Of a stretch of 64,000 bases of DNA, positions 54,104 through 61,260 are shown piece after piece (positions within the stretch are counted from its first letter, which is position 1; every line of letters begins with the position of its first letter). A model generated the notes under the pieces. The model did not search any database, had not been told where the DNA came from, and saw only the letters and a list, made by a program, of their open reading frames with translations. Position numbers and translations under genes: made by a program. This stretch comes from Armatimonadota bacterium (GTDB taxonomy: Bacteria; Armatimonadota; Zipacnadia; Zipacnadales; JABUFB01): contig JABUFB010000008.1 of NCBI GenBank assembly GCA_013314775.1, positions 124,001 to 188,000 of the forward strand. Reading direction: 5' to 3'.

Positions 54104-55201
54104 TCAGTCGAAGATCCCGGCTCCTCCCGAGGAGCTCCCAACGGATGAACGCGCTTTCAGCAGAAGAACCAGCAGCAGGATAACGAGGGCGGTCAGGATG
54201 TAGACCGCCACGTACAGGCCTGTTGGGGTGGCCGCAGCCGGACTTCCCTCGGTCCCGGGGGCGATGGTGGTCGGCGGGGAGCCGTGGAAACCGGCTTCCG
54301 CAACCGGAGCCGCCAGCGCGGCCGCGTTGAAATACCCCTGCGCCAGATAGGTGTCCGTCTTCTCTCCGCCGCTCAGGAACTTGACATAGATCACGCGGGC
54401 ACCTGATTCGCTTGCAAGTTGCCGGGCCACTTCGCCGGGCTTGGCCTCCTTCATGCTGAGTGGGCAGACGATGCCGCTGAATTTCCCGGAGCGCAGGCCG
54501 TCCACGGTCTCCTTGAGTTCCTGCCCGCTCAGTGTGCCGCCACCCTCCTGCAGAAGTATCCGCCCCACCTTCAGCCCCGTGTTCTCCACGATGTAAGCAA
54601 CACACGCCAGTGTAGCGACGACGCTCTTTCCCTCGAGCCCGGCTCTATGCACGAGCTCTTGAGAAGTCTTGTGCATAGCTTCGACTTCGAGAACGAAGCG
54701 GTCCAGATTAGCATCGATGGCCGCGGGGTCGAGGCCTGCTTCTTTGAGTCGCTTTGCAATCCCCTTCGCCATGGCGATTGCATTCTCGTGATCGAGCCAG
54801 AAGCCGTGGGGATTGCCCGGATTCCCCACAAAGTCCTTGAATCTCGCTCCAAAGGGTTCGTAGTCGGGCCAGTCCACTGATGGTTTGCTCGGCAGGGCCT
54901 GCTTGATCGTGTTCTCGAACTCCAGGAATGCCGTGCGCGCGTAGACGATGAGATCCGCTGATGCCAGGTCGGACTGAATCTGTGCGGTGATCGTGAAGCT
55001 GTGCGGATCTGCGCCCGCGGGCATGATCTCTTTGGCCTGAACCAGTGAGCCGCCGACAGCCTCCACGATGGGCAGGATATCCGAGAGCGACACTGCGACT
55101 TTCAGAGGGGCGGCAAAGGCCGGAATACATGAGGCCAGGGCCAGCATCACAATGGCGACGGTGGACGGGGCCCATCCGCGACTTCCTGCCACTCGCGACA
55201 T
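54104..55201 (-). CDS. ZnuA/TroA-like metal-binding protein with C-terminal membrane anchor
   Basis: 365 residues. Signal peptide (AFA-AP cleavage likely; a Cys in LASC makes a lipoprotein possible), then a TroA fold: His in GADPHSF, His in NPHGFWLD, and a late Asp in GGEKTDTYL. The third His ligand expected in sHdAfgY is replaced (ATLACVAY). A membrane helix at about 326-347 precedes a short tail (KARSSVGSSSGGAG), unlike usual soluble ZnuA. No ABC permease or ATPase is near; it is last in the SPFH/P-type ATPase array. Confidence 0.85.
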   Translation of the reverse strand: MSRVAGSRGWAPSTVAIVMLALASCIPAFAAPLKVAVSLSDILPIVEAVGGSLVQAKEIMPAGADPHSFTITAQIQSDLASADLIVYARTAFLEFENTIKQALPSKPSVDWPDYEPFGARFKDFVGNPGNPHGFWLDHENAIAMAKGIAKRLKEAGLDPAAIDANLDRFVLEVEAMHKTSQELVHRAGLEGKSVVATLACVAYIVENTGLKVGRILLQEGGGTLSGQELKETVDGLRSGKFSGIVCPLSMKEAKPGEVARQLASESGARVIYVKFLSGGEKTDTYLAQGYFNAAALAAPVAEAGFHGSPPTTIAPGTEGSPAAATPTGLYVAVYILTALVILLLVLLLKARSSVGSSSGGAGIFD

Positions 55202-55237
55202 AGGGTACTCTCCCGATTGGAAGCATTGACCGATGCG

Positions 55238-57295
55238 TTACTCGTCGCCAAGCTCCAGGCGAAGCAGCCGGGCGCTATTGAACACGACAGCCACGGAGCC
55301 CACATTGTGCAACAGAACCCCCACGATCGCGCCCACGTATCCGAGGGCCGCCAGGACGATCATGACAAGTGCGGTGCCGACGCCAATGCCTACGTTCGTG
55401 TTGATGGTACGGCGGGTGATGCGCGACAGGCGAATGGCCGTGGCGATACGCCGGATGTCATTGCTCATGAGGGCAATATCCGCGCTCTGAATTGCAGCGT
55501 CAGACCCCATCGCGCCCATGGCGACACCGACGTCCGCGCGTGCAAGTGCGGGAGCGTCGTTGATCCCATCTCCGACAGCCAGGACGCGCACCCCTCCGGC
55601 GCCCTCAGCCTCGACGACTTCCAGCTTCTGTGTGGGCAGCATGCCGGCGAAATACTCGTCCACCCCGAGGTGCTCTGCCAGGTGCTGAGCGACTTCCGGA
55701 CGGTCCCCTGTGAGCAGGAGCATGCGGCGTATGCCCAGGGAGCGCAAGTCGTCCAGGGCTTCGCGGGCTTCGGGTCGAGGGCGGTCCGCCAGCAGTACAG
55801 CGCCCAGAACCTCGCCGTCCCTTGATGCCCAGACTGCCGGACCCACGTGGTCGTCGAGAATCTTCTGGTCCCGCTCCTGCACTCCGAGCCACGTTGCGCT
55901 GCCAAGACGCAGAACATGACCCTCCACACGGGCTTCAACGCCCTTGCCGGGATGCTCCACGATCTGCTGCGGGTCAGTGATGGTGATCCCGCGCTGTTCG
56001 GCATCGCGGCAGATGGCTCGCGAAATCGGGTGCCGCGATCCGTGGGCGCAGTACAAGGCGGTCTCGAAAAGCAGCCGTTCGGAGTTGCCGTGCAGGGTGC
56101 GGGCGCCCACCACATCCAATTGCCCGAGGGTAACGGTGCCCGTCTTGTCGAGCACCATGGTGCGCACCTCGGAGAGCACTTCGAGGAACCGGGTGTTCTT
56201 GATGAGAATGCCCCAGCGCGAGGCGAGCGCCAGTGATGCCACCATCGCGGTGGAACTGGACAGCACCAGCGCGCACGGGCAGGCCACCACCAGCAGAGCG
56301 ACCCCACGCCCGACCTCGCGGGTCAACAAGACCACGACAACGGCAGCGACCAGCACAAGCGGCATGTAGTAGCCGCTATAGCGTTCAAGGAGCTGGGTGA
56401 TCGGCGCGCGAGACTGCTCGGCAGCCCGGAGGGTATCGAGCACCCGTCCCATCGCGGTTTCCTCTCCAAGGCTGGTCACCTGCAGCCGCAGCAGTCCAGA
56501 GACATTGACCGTGCCCGCGAACACGGGACTGCCGGGCCCCACGTCTTCAGGTACAGATTCGCCGGTCACCGCGCTCTGGTCCACAGCGGAGTGGCCCTCG
56601 ATAACCGACCCATCAGCCGGGAAGACCTCACCGGGACGAACCAGGATGGTGTCGCCCACGCGCAGTTCATCAAGCTCGATCTCTTCCTCGGTTCCGTCGG
56701 CGGCGACACGGGTGGCGCTGCGGGCGCGCAGGCGCTTGAGGCCCTCAATCGCGGCCCTGGCCCCGAGCACGCTGCGCTCCTCCAGGAAGTGTCCCAACGC
56801 CAGGAGCAGCGGGACAAGGATCGCAGTCTCATACTCCCCGGTAGCGATTGCTGCCAGGACCGCGATGCTCACAAGCTGGTCCATGATGTTGTGCGCATGG
56901 TCACCATGTCCGGCGTGTTCACGGTGCTGGGGACGCCCTGCGCAGCACGTCTCGTCGTGGTCGTGATCGTTCCCGCACGCACACGTCTCGCTCTCGGCTC
57001 CGCGGATCGCTGCCTCAAGCTGGCAGCCGCGACAGCTCAGACCCTGAATCGCTGCCCTGAAGACGGGAACGGCGGCGACGATGGATGCCGCGAAAAGAAC
57101 CACGTCGGCGACGTCCTTCTGGTCGGGGAAGAGTCGGGCATAGAGCCAGCCGACGACCAGCAAGCCCGTAGCCAGAAGGGCGCTGCCGATGCGCCGGTTG
57201 ATGTTCCGCTGTTCCTCCTCGGTCAAGACCGGCTCCAGCGCACTGCGAAGCCTGTCTGCCGCGGGGTTGGAGCTTATTCCGAATGTTTCAGCCAT
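55238..57295 (-). CDS. P1B-type heavy-metal ATPase with Cys/His-rich loop
   Basis: 685 residues. TGES (244-247), the membrane CPC, DKTGT and GDGINDAPAL mark an active P1B pump. There is no HMA domain; instead residues 88-135 between helices 2 and 3 form an insert with six Cys and several His (CRGC, CACGNDHDHDETCC, HGDHAH). The last helix has LLHNVGSVAVV where Zn/Cd pumps carry ADxGAT, so the subtype is unclear. Exports a soft or transition metal. 36 bp upstream of the ZnuA-like gene. Confidence 0.93.
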   Translation of the reverse strand: MAETFGISSNPAADRLRSALEPVLTEEEQRNINRRIGSALLATGLLVVGWLYARLFPDQKDVADVVLFAASIVAAVPVFRAAIQGLSCRGCQLEAAIRGAESETCACGNDHDHDETCCAGRPQHREHAGHGDHAHNIMDQLVSIAVLAAIATGEYETAILVPLLLALGHFLEERSVLGARAAIEGLKRLRARSATRVAADGTEEEIELDELRVGDTILVRPGEVFPADGSVIEGHSAVDQSAVTGESVPEDVGPGSPVFAGTVNVSGLLRLQVTSLGEETAMGRVLDTLRAAEQSRAPITQLLERYSGYYMPLVLVAAVVVVLLTREVGRGVALLVVACPCALVLSSSTAMVASLALASRWGILIKNTRFLEVLSEVRTMVLDKTGTVTLGQLDVVGARTLHGNSERLLFETALYCAHGSRHPISRAICRDAEQRGITITDPQQIVEHPGKGVEARVEGHVLRLGSATWLGVQERDQKILDDHVGPAVWASRDGEVLGAVLLADRPRPEAREALDDLRSLGIRRMLLLTGDRPEVAQHLAEHLGVDEYFAGMLPTQKLEVVEAEGAGGVRVLAVGDGINDAPALARADVGVAMGAMGSDAAIQSADIALMSNDIRRIATAIRLSRITRRTINTNVGIGVGTALVMIVLAALGYVGAIVGVLLHNVGSVAVVFNSARLLRLELGDE

Positions 57296-57349
57296 GAGCC
57301 GCTAGTCCTCGATGGGAGATACCGCGCGACGCAGTCGGTAATGTTGCGC

Positions 57350-58402
57350 TTACTGCTTGGGTTCGGAGCCCTTCTTCTCGTCTTCTTTCGCGGCGGGCTC
57401 AACGGGCAGGAGCACCCGGGTCCCGCTGCCTGCATCCGCCGGCACGAGAACCCGCGACCCCACCTTCTCCAGCATGCGTTCCACCGATTCCCGGTACAAC
57501 CGCTCGCGCACTACCTTGGGATTCGCCTTGTACTCGGCCACCACGTTGCGGAAGGAAGAGACCTCACCGCGCGCGCGGCCCAGTCGGTCTGCCGCGAAGG
57601 CCTCAGCATCGCTGATCATCCGCTCGCGCTCCGCCTGAGCCTTCGGGATCTCTTTTTCGCGGTACGTATTGGCCTTCTGAATTCGCGTTTCGCGCTCCAC
57701 GTAAGCGCTCACGACCGCCTCGAAATCCGGCGCCACGGCTTTTGGCGGCACGATCTCCCGGAACTCCACGGCGATCACGCCTACTCCCGCACCGGCCTCG
57801 TCCAGGCGTTTCTGGGTGCGTCGCTGCACCGCCGCAGCCAGGTTCTTCTTGCCCTCGGCGAGCACGGCATCAACTGACCGTTCCCCCACGGCCTGGCAGA
57901 GTGCCTCGCTGGCCACATTGCGGATCAGCGCCTGTGGGTCGTCCACGTACAGGGCATACTTGATCGGGTCGGTGATCTCGTACTTCAGGAGGGCGTCAAC
58001 ATGAACGATGTTCTGGTCACCGGTGAGACAGTAACCCACCTCGCGCGGGTCCAGCGTGTTCTCCACCAGGACCGCGTCTTCGCCGCGTTCAGACTCCTGT
58101 TCGCTTAGCTTCTTGCCGCTGAACTGAGTTATTGCCACTTCCTGCACTCGTCTCACCGGCACGCGAATAACCTGGTCAATCAAGTAGGGCCACGCAATGA
58201 GAATCCCGGGACCGTGAACCTGGTCCGCTGGGGTCGCCCCGGAGAGCTTCCCGAAGCGCAGGACCAATGCGGCTTCGTCGGACTTGACGAAAGTGATCCC
58301 CGAGCCCGCGATGAGCACGAGCGCCGCGATGGCGGCCCACCGGAGGAACCGGAAGGCCGAATCGAGGCTGTCAGCCACGGCCTTGCGCCTGTCTTCGGTC
58401 AT
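57350..58402 (-). CDS. SPFH/HflK-like protein
   Basis: 350 residues: one N-terminal membrane helix (about 23-41), then an SPFH domain (VKSDEAALVLRFGKL, GPGILIAWPYLIDQV) and a coiled coil (IQKANTYREKEIPKAQAERE) ending in a short tail. HflK-like proteins build membrane cages with HflC. The ATG at 58402 has GGAGGTGA five bases upstream. Second partner of the array; the P-type ATPase follows 54 bp downstream. Confidence 0.87.
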   Translation of the reverse strand: MTEDRRKAVADSLDSAFRFLRWAAIAALVLIAGSGITFVKSDEAALVLRFGKLSGATPADQVHGPGILIAWPYLIDQVIRVPVRRVQEVAITQFSGKKLSEQESERGEDAVLVENTLDPREVGYCLTGDQNIVHVDALLKYEITDPIKYALYVDDPQALIRNVASEALCQAVGERSVDAVLAEGKKNLAAAVQRRTQKRLDEAGAGVGVIAVEFREIVPPKAVAPDFEAVVSAYVERETRIQKANTYREKEIPKAQAERERMISDAEAFAADRLGRARGEVSSFRNVVAEYKANPKVVRERLYRESVERMLEKVGSRVLVPADAGSGTRVLLPVEPAAKEDEKKGSEPKQ

Positions 58403-58420
58403 CTGGGTCACCTCCAATGG

Positions 58421-59329
58421 CTACTGCGCAGGTGCGCTGCCGCCGGGCTTCTTGAGCACGTCAAACGGCGGTGTTTCCGTGTCCAGCACGACGGTGGCAT
58501 TCTTGCCGAGGATCTTTTCCATGGAGTCCAGTGACCGCAGGAACTTGTAGAATGCCGGGTCGATCTGGTGGGCTGCAGCGTAAATCTTCGCCGCCTGGGC
58601 TTCGGCATTCCCGCGGATCCGCTCCGCCTTCTCTTCGCCCTCGGCACGAAGTTTGGCTGCCTCAAGATCGGTCTCGGCGCGTATTCTCGCTGCTTCCTTT
58701 TCGCCCTCGGCGCGGAACCTGGCCGCGTACTGTGCGCGCTCGGCCTTCATCTGGTCGAACACATAGCGGATGTTCTCCTCGGGCAGGGCCAGACGCTGGA
58801 TGCCTATCTGCACCACATCCACACCATAGCGCTGCCTGGCCTCTTCTTTCACATCCGACAGCATATCTGCCTCGATCTTGTCGAGTTGTTGCTCGTCCGG
58901 CTCCTTGGAAACCAGCGCCGAGAAGTCGTAGCGCCCGAGCACTGCGTTCTTCGCATTTGTCACCACACCGTCGAGTTTGGATTCGGCGCCTTCAATACTC
59001 CAGACGGCCTCCACGAACCGAACCGGATCCGCGACTTTCCAGACAGTATAGGTGACGAGGATCACGTTCTTCTTATCACGAGTCAGCGTCTCGGTGAGTC
59101 GCGTTTCATGCAGCCGACTGCGCGCGTCCAGAATGATGGCGCGCTCGAAGGGCACAGGCAATTTGACCTTCAGACCCGCGGTGGTGTACGTCCGCACCGG
59201 CTTGCCGAACAGGGTTATGACAGCCATACGCCCCTCGGGGACACTGAAGAGCATGCTGGACAGAATGATCACGGCCGCCACGGAAATGGCGACGATCCAG
59301 CGGTTCCGGCTGGTGGGATCCATGAGCAC
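58421..59329 (-). CDS. SPFH/HflC-like protein
   Basis: 302 residues from a GTG at 59329 (GGAGG five bases upstream; an ATG at 59323 is also possible). One membrane helix, then an SPFH domain (PEGRMAVITLFGKPV, LPEENIRYVF) and an Ala/Arg/Glu-rich coiled coil (EGEKEAARIRAETDLEAAKL), as in HflC. Located between two other SPFH genes with short gaps. Confidence 0.88.
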   Translation of the reverse strand: MLMDPTSRNRWIVAISVAAVIILSSMLFSVPEGRMAVITLFGKPVRTYTTAGLKVKLPVPFERAIILDARSRLHETRLTETLTRDKKNVILVTYTVWKVADPVRFVEAVWSIEGAESKLDGVVTNAKNAVLGRYDFSALVSKEPDEQQLDKIEADMLSDVKEEARQRYGVDVVQIGIQRLALPEENIRYVFDQMKAERAQYAARFRAEGEKEAARIRAETDLEAAKLRAEGEEKAERIRGNAEAQAAKIYAAAHQIDPAFYKFLRSLDSMEKILGKNATVVLDTETPPFDVLKKPGGSAPAQ

Positions 59330-59379
59330 TGCAACCTCCTGGAACTATTGTCCGGCGAAACGCGCGGGCGCGTATCTGG

Positions 59380-61260
59380 TTACGGTATGTCAGCGGCGCC
59401 TGACGGGCGCAGGTCCAGCCAGTAGTCACGTGGCGTCGTGGTCTTGCCCTCAACAAGATAGACTTGCTTTCCCGCCACGGACTTCTCCAGCTTTTCGAGC
59501 CACAGCCGCTCTTTGTACAGCCCCGGTGCGGCGTTGTACGCGTTGACGATGCTCTCAAACTGAACGGCCTCGCCTTTCGCCGCGCCAAGACGTTCGGCGG
59601 CGTGGGCTTCAGCACCCTTGATCGCGGTGTCCTTTGCCGCTTGGGCGGCAGGGATAGCTTCGGCCTTTTTCGCGCGAGCAAGGGTCTCGAGCGTCACTCG
59701 CTCAACCTGTGCGCTCACCACGCTCTGGTAGCTCTCGGCCACGTCGATAGGGGGATGAATGCCACGGACCGGCACACTCACCACGGTGATGCCCAGGTCC
59801 TGGGCGTTCACTTCGGCCTGCAGGCCCCAACGGAGACGCTGCGAGAACTTGTCGCGGCTCTGAGACAAGAGAGTGTCCAGGTTGGTCGTAACCGTCTCGC
59901 GCATAAGGACACGGTAGGCCAGGGACTTCAGCATCTCTCGGGGATTCTGGCATTTGAACACATATTTGACCGGGTCGTGGATGAAGTAGAACACTTCCGC
60001 TTCGAGTGAGACCAGTTCCCGTCCTTCACCGAGGACCAGCTTGTACTCATCCTTGGCATGCTCGCGGGACCACAGGAGGTAGGGAGACTGCTGCTCCTCC
60101 TCGTGGCCGATGATGAATGACTGAATCCTGGTCGCCGGGATCGCGGTCACCCGGTCGATAGGCCAGGGCCACTTGACCCGCAGTCCCGGCGACATCCAGC
60201 AACGGTCGGGAAGGCTACCGAAAGTCGTCCGTATGCCCACTTCGTCCGGCTTGATCACTACGAGGCAGCTCATCAGCCAGAACGCCGCCAGCATGCCAAG
60301 GAGCATGAGCGGAACGGTCTGGCGGATGTAACGAAGCACGTATGAAGACCGCACGCTGACGCCGAAGCGCTTTTCGAGAACTTCGAGAGTGCCGATAATG
60401 GGGTTGCCGCCGGCAAACAGGCTCTCGGCGATGACGAGTCCAATGGGTGCTCGGATTTCCCGCCAGTCCAGGCGGCGGCCAACAAAACTGAGGGTGGCGC
60501 GCGCAACTTGCTCGCCCGCCAGCGCCAAAGCGATCAGCAGCAGGAGGCGCCCCACCCACAGGTCGACGGCGAACAGCTGGAAACCGTGAGCCAGCAGGAC
60601 CAGTCCGCCCAGGAGGCTGTACCACTGCACCGCGCGCAGGATGCTGGAGACCTCCGCGGCTTCGGGCAGGGCCTCGGGCTCGTACTCCCCGAACCACCGG
60701 GCGCCGACCATCGCAGCGAACGCCGCCACGAGATTGATGACTCCCAGGACGTAGATAATCGTGGACATCCCCCCGGCCCCTGACTTCCAGAGAGCAAGCA
60801 CCGGGATCGCGCCCGCGAGCAGCGCATAGCAGATGAGAACAAGCGGCTGGACCGTGCGCCCGTAGTGCTCAAGCCGGGTGGTGGAGATCGGCTCCGTGTC
60901 GATCTGGATGTCCGAAACGAACATGGACCGGCTGGCTTCTTCCTGGCGGCGCAGGCGCTCACGCTGAAGCTCGGCGATATGCAGGGCCTCGGCGATCACG
61001 CGCCTACGGTACTCTGTGGTCACGGCGGCGGCGCCGAGAAGCACCGCCGCAAGCGCCTGCATGGCGATAATTGCGCACAGAGTAACAGAATCGCGCACGG
61101 GACCGAGGAGAGCGTTCAACCCGGCGAAGGCCGCTGCACCCAGCGTTGCGAGACCAAGAGGCATCAAGAGATCGGGCGCCTGTCGGATGTGCGGCGGGTA
61201 CTGGAGACGAACCTCGCCCTCGGAAAGCGGCGCGTCGTGCGGGGGACGGTCTTCGGGCAA
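59380..61260 (-). CDS. SPFH/HflK-like protein fused to an N-terminal multi-helix membrane domain
   Basis: 626 residues from a TTG at 61260. The first ~340 residues hold about seven membrane helices with a charged cytosolic stretch (about 85-130); the rest is an SPFH domain (VVIKPDEVGIRTTFGSLPD, GLRVKWPWPIDRV) with an Ala-rich coiled coil (AIPAAQAAKDTAIKGAEAHA). The membrane part is not one I recognise as a separate family. First gene of the five-gene array. A shorter start is possible. Confidence 0.82.
   Translation of the reverse strand: MPEDRPPHDAPLSEGEVRLQYPPHIRQAPDLLMPLGLATLGAAAFAGLNALLGPVRDSVTLCAIIAMQALAAVLLGAAAVTTEYRRRVIAEALHIAELQRERLRRQEEASRSMFVSDIQIDTEPISTTRLEHYGRTVQPLVLICYALLAGAIPVLALWKSGAGGMSTIIYVLGVINLVAAFAAMVGARWFGEYEPEALPEAAEVSSILRAVQWYSLLGGLVLLAHGFQLFAVDLWVGRLLLLIALALAGEQVARATLSFVGRRLDWREIRAPIGLVIAESLFAGGNPIIGTLEVLEKRFGVSVRSSYVLRYIRQTVPLMLLGMLAAFWLMSCLVVIKPDEVGIRTTFGSLPDRCWMSPGLRVKWPWPIDRVTAIPATRIQSFIIGHEEEQQSPYLLWSREHAKDEYKLVLGEGRELVSLEAEVFYFIHDPVKYVFKCQNPREMLKSLAYRVLMRETVTTNLDTLLSQSRDKFSQRLRWGLQAEVNAQDLGITVVSVPVRGIHPPIDVAESYQSVVSAQVERVTLETLARAKKAEAIPAAQAAKDTAIKGAEAHAAERLGAAKGEAVQFESIVNAYNAAPGLYKERLWLEKLEKSVAGKQVYLVEGKTTTPRDYWLDLRPSGAADIP

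Follow-up and report, generated by a model that had tools for sequence, protein, structure and literature searches.

To our knowledge, what most bacterial SPFH assemblies do is an open question. In E. coli, 24 alternating HflK and HflC subunits build an assembly that has a periplasmic chamber inside and encloses FtsH (PMC12048511). The SPFH1, SPFH2, and SPFH5 operons of prokaryotes have NfeD as their partner, and the text of the 2009 survey that covers them mentions no ATPase, metal, or transporter (PMC2636767). Here we describe a five-gene array in a window of 64,000 nucleotides (the whole stretch of DNA that we analysed, C8:124001-188000 of an Armatimonadota bacterium) that we read, with a probability of roughly 60%, as encoding a complex for metal export that sits within an SPFH assembly of the HflK/HflC type.

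The array is transcribed from the minus strand. Its first gene, K1 (59380..61260), encodes a protein of 626 aa that joins a six-helix domain of predicted CDF fold to an HflK-like SPFH part, with a TTG start at the identical position in sister genome G001. It is followed by C, encoding an HflC-like SPFH protein (58421..59329; 302 aa), K2, encoding an HflK-like SPFH protein (57350..58417; 355 aa from the TTG at 58417, with an ATG at 58402), a P1B heavy-metal ATPase gene (55238..57295; 685 aa), and a gene for a ZnuA-like metal-binding protein (54104..55201; 365 aa). The initial annotation had described five same-strand genes with gaps of 18 to 54 bp, and we find all five reading frames in place with successive gaps of 50, 18, 54, and 36 bp, the second of these assuming the ATG start of K2. 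Its reading of the products as three SPFH proteins, a metal ATPase, and a tethered ZnuA-like protein is borne out by domain matches, NCBIfam models, and hydropathy, which agree. The three SPFH proteins match Band_7/SPFH at E = 1.4e-15, 1.3e-21, and 3e-26, the ATPase matches the E1-E2 ATPase domain at E = 1e-47, and the product of the last gene matches the ZnuA domain at E = 9.4e-30. C passes the NCBIfam HflC model TIGR01932 (166.1 bits, cut-off 134.4) and K2 the HflK model TIGR01933 (187.1 bits, cut-off 159.4); K1 stays under the latter cut-off with 136.6 bits, its SPFH domain being significant in itself. The nearest relatives are Armatimonadetes MAGs, including loci L083 (K1 92-94% identical) and L084, and the gene order is kept in the sister genome (G001/L083).

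How regularly such SPFH trios occur with metal exporters was surveyed at loci from three sources, namely a scan with the K1 SPFH profile, 40 loci from Planctomycetota and Verrucomicrobiota matches with long K1 frames, and 20 more matches picked mostly for unusual frame length. Selection thus followed K1 SPFH similarity and partly frame length, and metal genes were not a criterion. The 121 sorted loci comprise 49 with a 6TM::K1 gene and, no more than 9 kb away on that strand, a P1B gene, 41 with a P1B::K1 fusion, 13 each with an SO_0444::K1 or a CDF::K1 fusion, and 5 with 6TM::K1 and no P1B; three places were taken twice (L040/L083, L041/L084, and L045/L112), leaving 118 distinct loci. Three further loci (L106, L365, and L374) are without a clear class, and at three frameshift-split loci (L251, L262, and L283) a P1B gene adjoins each. 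The initial annotation had suggested that an SPFH assembly is tied to metal export and that a survey of gene neighbourhoods would speak against this if most trios stood without metal genes. The survey upholds the suggestion: a metal exporter is fused to K1 or lies near it on the same strand at 113 of the 118 distinct loci, a fraction that describes samples drawn near the top of the ranking with a profile built from metal-linked K1 proteins, so that SPFH trios with very different partners could be missed. Among the five loci with no exporter, L087, L277, and L280 stop at contig ends, and L095 and L266 have none. The combination of trio and exporter recurs in many phyla, and the link between them is strong. 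A scan of viral contigs for K1 gave no match.

Chance adjacency of unrelated genes is extremely improbable as an explanation of this link. Nothing beyond the usual clustering of genes speaks for it, while the gene order is conserved over many phyla, fusions occur repeatedly, and at 19 loci with ordinary HflK/HflC genes no P1B gene lies within 9 kb.

The neighbourhoods also hold other recurrent genes. A conserved single-helix protein, mostly of about 165 aa and with no Pfam match, is encoded directly after K2, mostly at P1B::K1 loci (L046 6571-7077; also L050, L052, L094, L103, L105, L120, L136, L138, L140, L146, L151, and L157), and might be a fourth subunit. An ABC ATPase gene, often with genes for ABC-2-type membrane proteins, adjoins many trios of Phycisphaerae and Verrucomicrobiota (L139, L141, L249, L250, L274-L276, L284, and L285). 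At L145 and L122 (Deltaproteobacteria, Syntrophaceae), ordinary HflK/HflC genes lie near a P-type ATPase of 880-893 aa that belongs to another class and scores weakly as P1B.

The fusions bear directly on a metal-export complex. Searching relatives with K1 returned frames of about 1000 aa that contain a complete P1B ATPase in frame with an HflK-like SPFH domain, with HflC and another HflK encoded after it. This P1B::K1/C/K2 arrangement is common in Acidobacteriota and also found in some Planctomycetota and Verrucomicrobiota. The CDF domain of CDF::K1 matches TIGR01297 above its cut-off in all four proteins scanned from the 13 loci (E = 3.3e-25 to 5.7e-28), and its hosts are Chloroflexi, Alphaproteobacteria, Thermodesulfobacteriota, Verrucomicrobiota, the Rokubacteria phylum, and an Altiarchaeota MAG, where the gene is possibly a contamination. 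SO_0444::K1 matches NF033936 above cut-off in five of five proteins scanned from its 13 loci (E = 5e-105 to 4e-119), which come from Rokubacteria and Planctomycetota. The window's own type, 6TM::K1 with a separate P1B gene, is found in Armatimonadota, Planctomycetota, Verrucomicrobiota/Lentisphaerae, Clostridia, and one genome of the Rokubacteria phylum. In relatives, the predicted proteins thus show the N-terminal part of K1 to be an exporter of the P1B, CDF, or SO_0444 type. With three unrelated exporter families fused to a cage protein, metal pumping and the caging of a membrane patch look like one job. Support for the deep branches of the SPFH tree is poor (0.16-0.65) and does not allow the fusion events to be counted. 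Among the genes near these fusions, one for a PpiC-type peptidyl-prolyl isomerase-domain protein of 650-760 aa, recognised by profile, lies beside CDF::K1 at 10 of the 13 loci (for example, L098 6224-8422, L126 12956-15118, L358, L359, L376, and L377). At L159 (3064-3756), a regulator of the MerR family that is similar to CueR and ZntR is encoded divergently from an SO_0444::K1 trio, which fits metal control.

That the third SPFH protein of the array is fused to a membrane domain, as the initial annotation had noted, can be seen directly, and the identity of that domain can now be refined. Hydropathy places six helices in K1 besides the SPFH anchor, and the six-helix domain (aa 22-266; 60463..61197, minus strand) is related to CDF transporters by a chain of profiles and by a structure model. 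In profile comparisons, the window type matches the Planctomycetota/Verrucomicrobiota type (E = 1.3e-14 over 261 columns) and this intermediate type matches the CDF type (E = 1.3e-11 over 204 columns), with unrelated membrane families as controls at E = 0.03-0.6. The membrane part of a full-length K1 model was too uncertain, and the domain was modelled on its own, using an alignment that left out the CDF cluster, giving helices mostly at pLDDT 71-88. The top structural match of this model is YiiP (Z 17.9, rmsd 2.7 Å over 183 residues), and its best 27 matches are all CDF transporters, the next and unrelated one scoring Z 7.9; Foldseek alone gave no match below E = 0.04, with CDF proteins as its top three. 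Having no NCBIfam match and only a weak direct profile match to CDF, the domain had been read as an unknown fold, which the intermediate cluster and the model overturned. For the N-terminal domains of Clostridia K1 proteins, profile comparison detected no relation to CDF.

Helices 2 and 5 of the window domain have no Asp, Glu, or His in their core, so that the CDF metal site is absent. This site is kept almost completely in CDF::K1 (mostly H/D, D, H, D) and mostly lost in the intermediate type. Judging from the model and these residues, we take the membrane domain of the window K1 to be a CDF zinc-transporter fold that has lost its metal site. Loss of the site in the P1B-partnered domains indicates that, at loci with a separate P1B gene, the CDF-fold part has ceased to be a CDF pump, and the separate P1B ATPase is accordingly the likely pump of the window array.

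This ATPase passes the heavy-metal P-type model TIGR01525 with 543 bits (cut-off 346) and has the motifs DKTGT and TGES, CPC in helix 6, and HNVGS in helix 8. Between its first helix pair and the ATPase core lies a Cys/His-rich stretch (CRGCQ...HGDHAH; 56891..57037, minus strand) that is present in G001 and His-rich in G002. A tree was built from the P1Bs of trios, 49 unfused and 39 fused, together with 23 references. All 49 unfused proteins, the window's among them, group in a single clade (support 0.998). The fused proteins cluster weakly (0.32), and sampled non-trio P1Bs of the same genomes as well as E. coli CopA and ZntA fall outside both groups. Two lone Armatimonadota P1Bs (L306 and L316) are sisters of the fused clade (0.949) with the same helix-8 motif and are possible ancestors of the fusion.

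The known groups of P1B ATPases are marked by helix-8 motifs, with MxxSS for P1B-1 (Cu), DxG for P1B-2 (Zn/Cd), and HEGST for P1B-4 (Co). Trio P1Bs have H[NQ]xxS at this position, and we know of no P1B group that it fits. Compared with E. coli CopA (MxxSS) and ZntA (DTG), CoaT-type proteins (HEGST), and P1Bs of the same genomes, the window ATPase fits none of P1B-1, P1B-2, and P1B-4 by its motif, so that no metal can be named from the motif. The motif could also mean that many trio P1Bs carry a substrate other than a transition metal or are regulatory pseudo-pumps, all the more as CPC, present in all 39 fused proteins and in 36 of the 49 unfused ones, is replaced by CPG, CPS, TPC, IPC, or VPA in the remaining 13. 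However, the window ATPase itself combines CPC, DKTGT, and TGES with the Cys/His-rich stretch, and the families swapped in for it elsewhere are metal exporters, which makes this alternative improbable.

The last gene of the array appears less central to the export complex. Its ZnuA-like product has a C-terminal membrane anchor helix by hydropathy (about aa 329-347; 54161..54217, minus strand) and keeps three of four metal ligands (His, His, and Asp), the third position (Glu/His) being Leu. The array holds no ZnuB or ZnuC gene, and the only ABC-3 permease of the genome is encoded on another contig with a ZnuC-like neighbour. An anchored ZnuA-like protein with no ABC transporter, as proposed earlier, therefore holds for the array and does not generalise: the relative G022 has ZnuC and ZnuB genes after its ZnuA-like gene, G002 has a ZnuC-like gene there, and most other trios are without a ZnuA-like gene. 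Since G022 keeps them, the missing ABC genes of the array look like a local loss, and the absence of the ZnuA-like gene from most trios argues that this protein is a local remnant or add-on outside the core. Its position next to the P1B gene, the ABC genes of G022 and G002, and the isomerase gene beside CDF::K1 could instead be taken to mean that the caged exporter delivers metal to periplasmic or membrane enzymes rather than detoxifying, with the ZnuA-like protein or an ABC importer recycling the metal. We regard this as rather unlikely, because nearly all other trios lack such ABC and substrate-binding protein genes and no dedicated enzyme partner was seen at the trios.

In K1, a membrane anchor helix (aa 307-330; 60271..60342, minus strand) precedes the SPFH/Band_7 domain (aa 335-532; 59665..60258, minus strand), which carries W397-x3-H401 and H502-P-P. 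These W-x3-H and H(PP) residues are 93-100% conserved in K1 proteins with a P1B partner, fused or not, and reach at most 15% in CDF::K1, ordinary HflK, and K2; H502 is invariant also in SO_0444::K1. Being confined largely to P1B-linked K1 proteins, these residues suggest joint evolution of K1 with its pump.

The likeness of the trio to HflK/HflC could mean ordinary quality control by FtsH, with the trio as the HflK/HflC of the organism holding FtsH and the pump as a client or co-regulated neighbour. FtsH is encoded in the window genome (6.1 Mb in 37 contigs; C6:6540-8279, 811 bits), the trio provides the only HflK/HflC-like genes among seven Band_7 proteins (by size and score, we do not take the other four for HflK/HflC), and E. 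coli HflK/HflC encloses FtsH (PMC12048511). But ftsH is absent from the array and encoded on another contig, genomes G292, G297, and G299 hold a second, shorter HflK-like gene on a contig apart from their trio, and SPFH proteins are fused directly to three exporter families, so that we consider this explanation unlikely. Elsewhere in the window genome, a 645 aa SPFH gene has as its neighbour a gene for a membrane protein of 265 aa that contains DHDVD repeats (L038 8741-9538).

For the favoured metal-export complex, we propose a joint assembly of K1, C, and K2 that forms a dome resembling the E. coli HflK/HflC cage on the outer side of the inner membrane. The P1B ATPase would lie inside or against this dome and pump a heavy-metal ion from the cytoplasm into the enclosed space. 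The CDF-fold domain of the window K1 would probably be a structural docking part (the role is proposed, the fold and residues are those given above), and the anchored ZnuA-like protein probably a periplasmic metal binder beside the exit. P1B and CDF exporters have cytoplasmic C-termini, and the even helix count of SO_0444 suggests the same for this family. From a cytoplasmic exporter C-terminus, the next helix would carry the SPFH domain to the outer face, which is the side of metal exit. As two of the proteins are HflK-type and one is HflC-type, several exporters would come to lie beneath a single dome if the assembly is mixed. Tentatively, and with somewhat less than an even chance in our estimate, this may be a general bacterial device in which SPFH cages have a built-in, exchangeable exporter (P1B, CDF, or SO_0444) that pumps metal into a compartment walled by protein at the outer membrane face, to be held, handed on, or let go in a controlled way.

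The gene set is widespread in bacteria and apparently undescribed. In line with the initial annotation, which knew of no such system, open PMC full texts, a body that mostly leaves subscription papers and preprints outside, yielded no account of either an exporter fused to SPFH or this set of genes. Three unrelated exporters on one kind of SPFH protein provide a defined client and clearly predict a cage over the side where the pump lets metal out. The fused P1B::K1 protein is a practical structural target, because pump and cage subunit are present in one chain whose structure is directly solvable.

Among described systems, the ZnuABC zinc importer shares with the array the ZnuA-like domain family, but the array is without ZnuB and ZnuC and its ZnuA-like protein has a C-terminal membrane helix and one ligand lost. 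The SO_0444 family Cu/Zn efflux permease (NF033936) is absent from the window array; the same family is fused to K1 in Rokubacteria and Planctomycetota, for which we found no published account. CDF proteins (YiiP/FieF and ZnT) share the fold of the window K1 membrane domain and are represented by true CDF domains in CDF::K1 elsewhere, whereas the window domain is without the metal site and is followed by an SPFH domain after its six helices. Prokaryotic SPFH operons with NfeD (PMC2636767) likewise place SPFH genes in conserved operons, yet their partner is NfeD and that of the array is a metal exporter. The cage part is clearly HflK/HflC-like: the HflK/HflC-FtsH system of E. coli (PMC12048511; PDB 7WI3 and 9CZ2) shares adjacent hflK- and hflC-type genes with the array, and HflK/HflC structures are the best structural matches of the SPFH part of the K1 model. 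Unlike that system, the array has three SPFH genes instead of two, no ftsH, a fused or adjacent exporter, and W-x3-H and HPP in K1, and what is new is the coupling to metal exporters. Finally, the P1B ATPases CopA, ZntA, and CoaT share with the window ATPase the P1B core, CPC, DKTGT, TGES, and a score above the TIGR01525 cut-off, whereas the unfused trio P1Bs form their own clade, and trio P1Bs carry H[NQ]xxS in helix 8 and are linked or fused to SPFH proteins.
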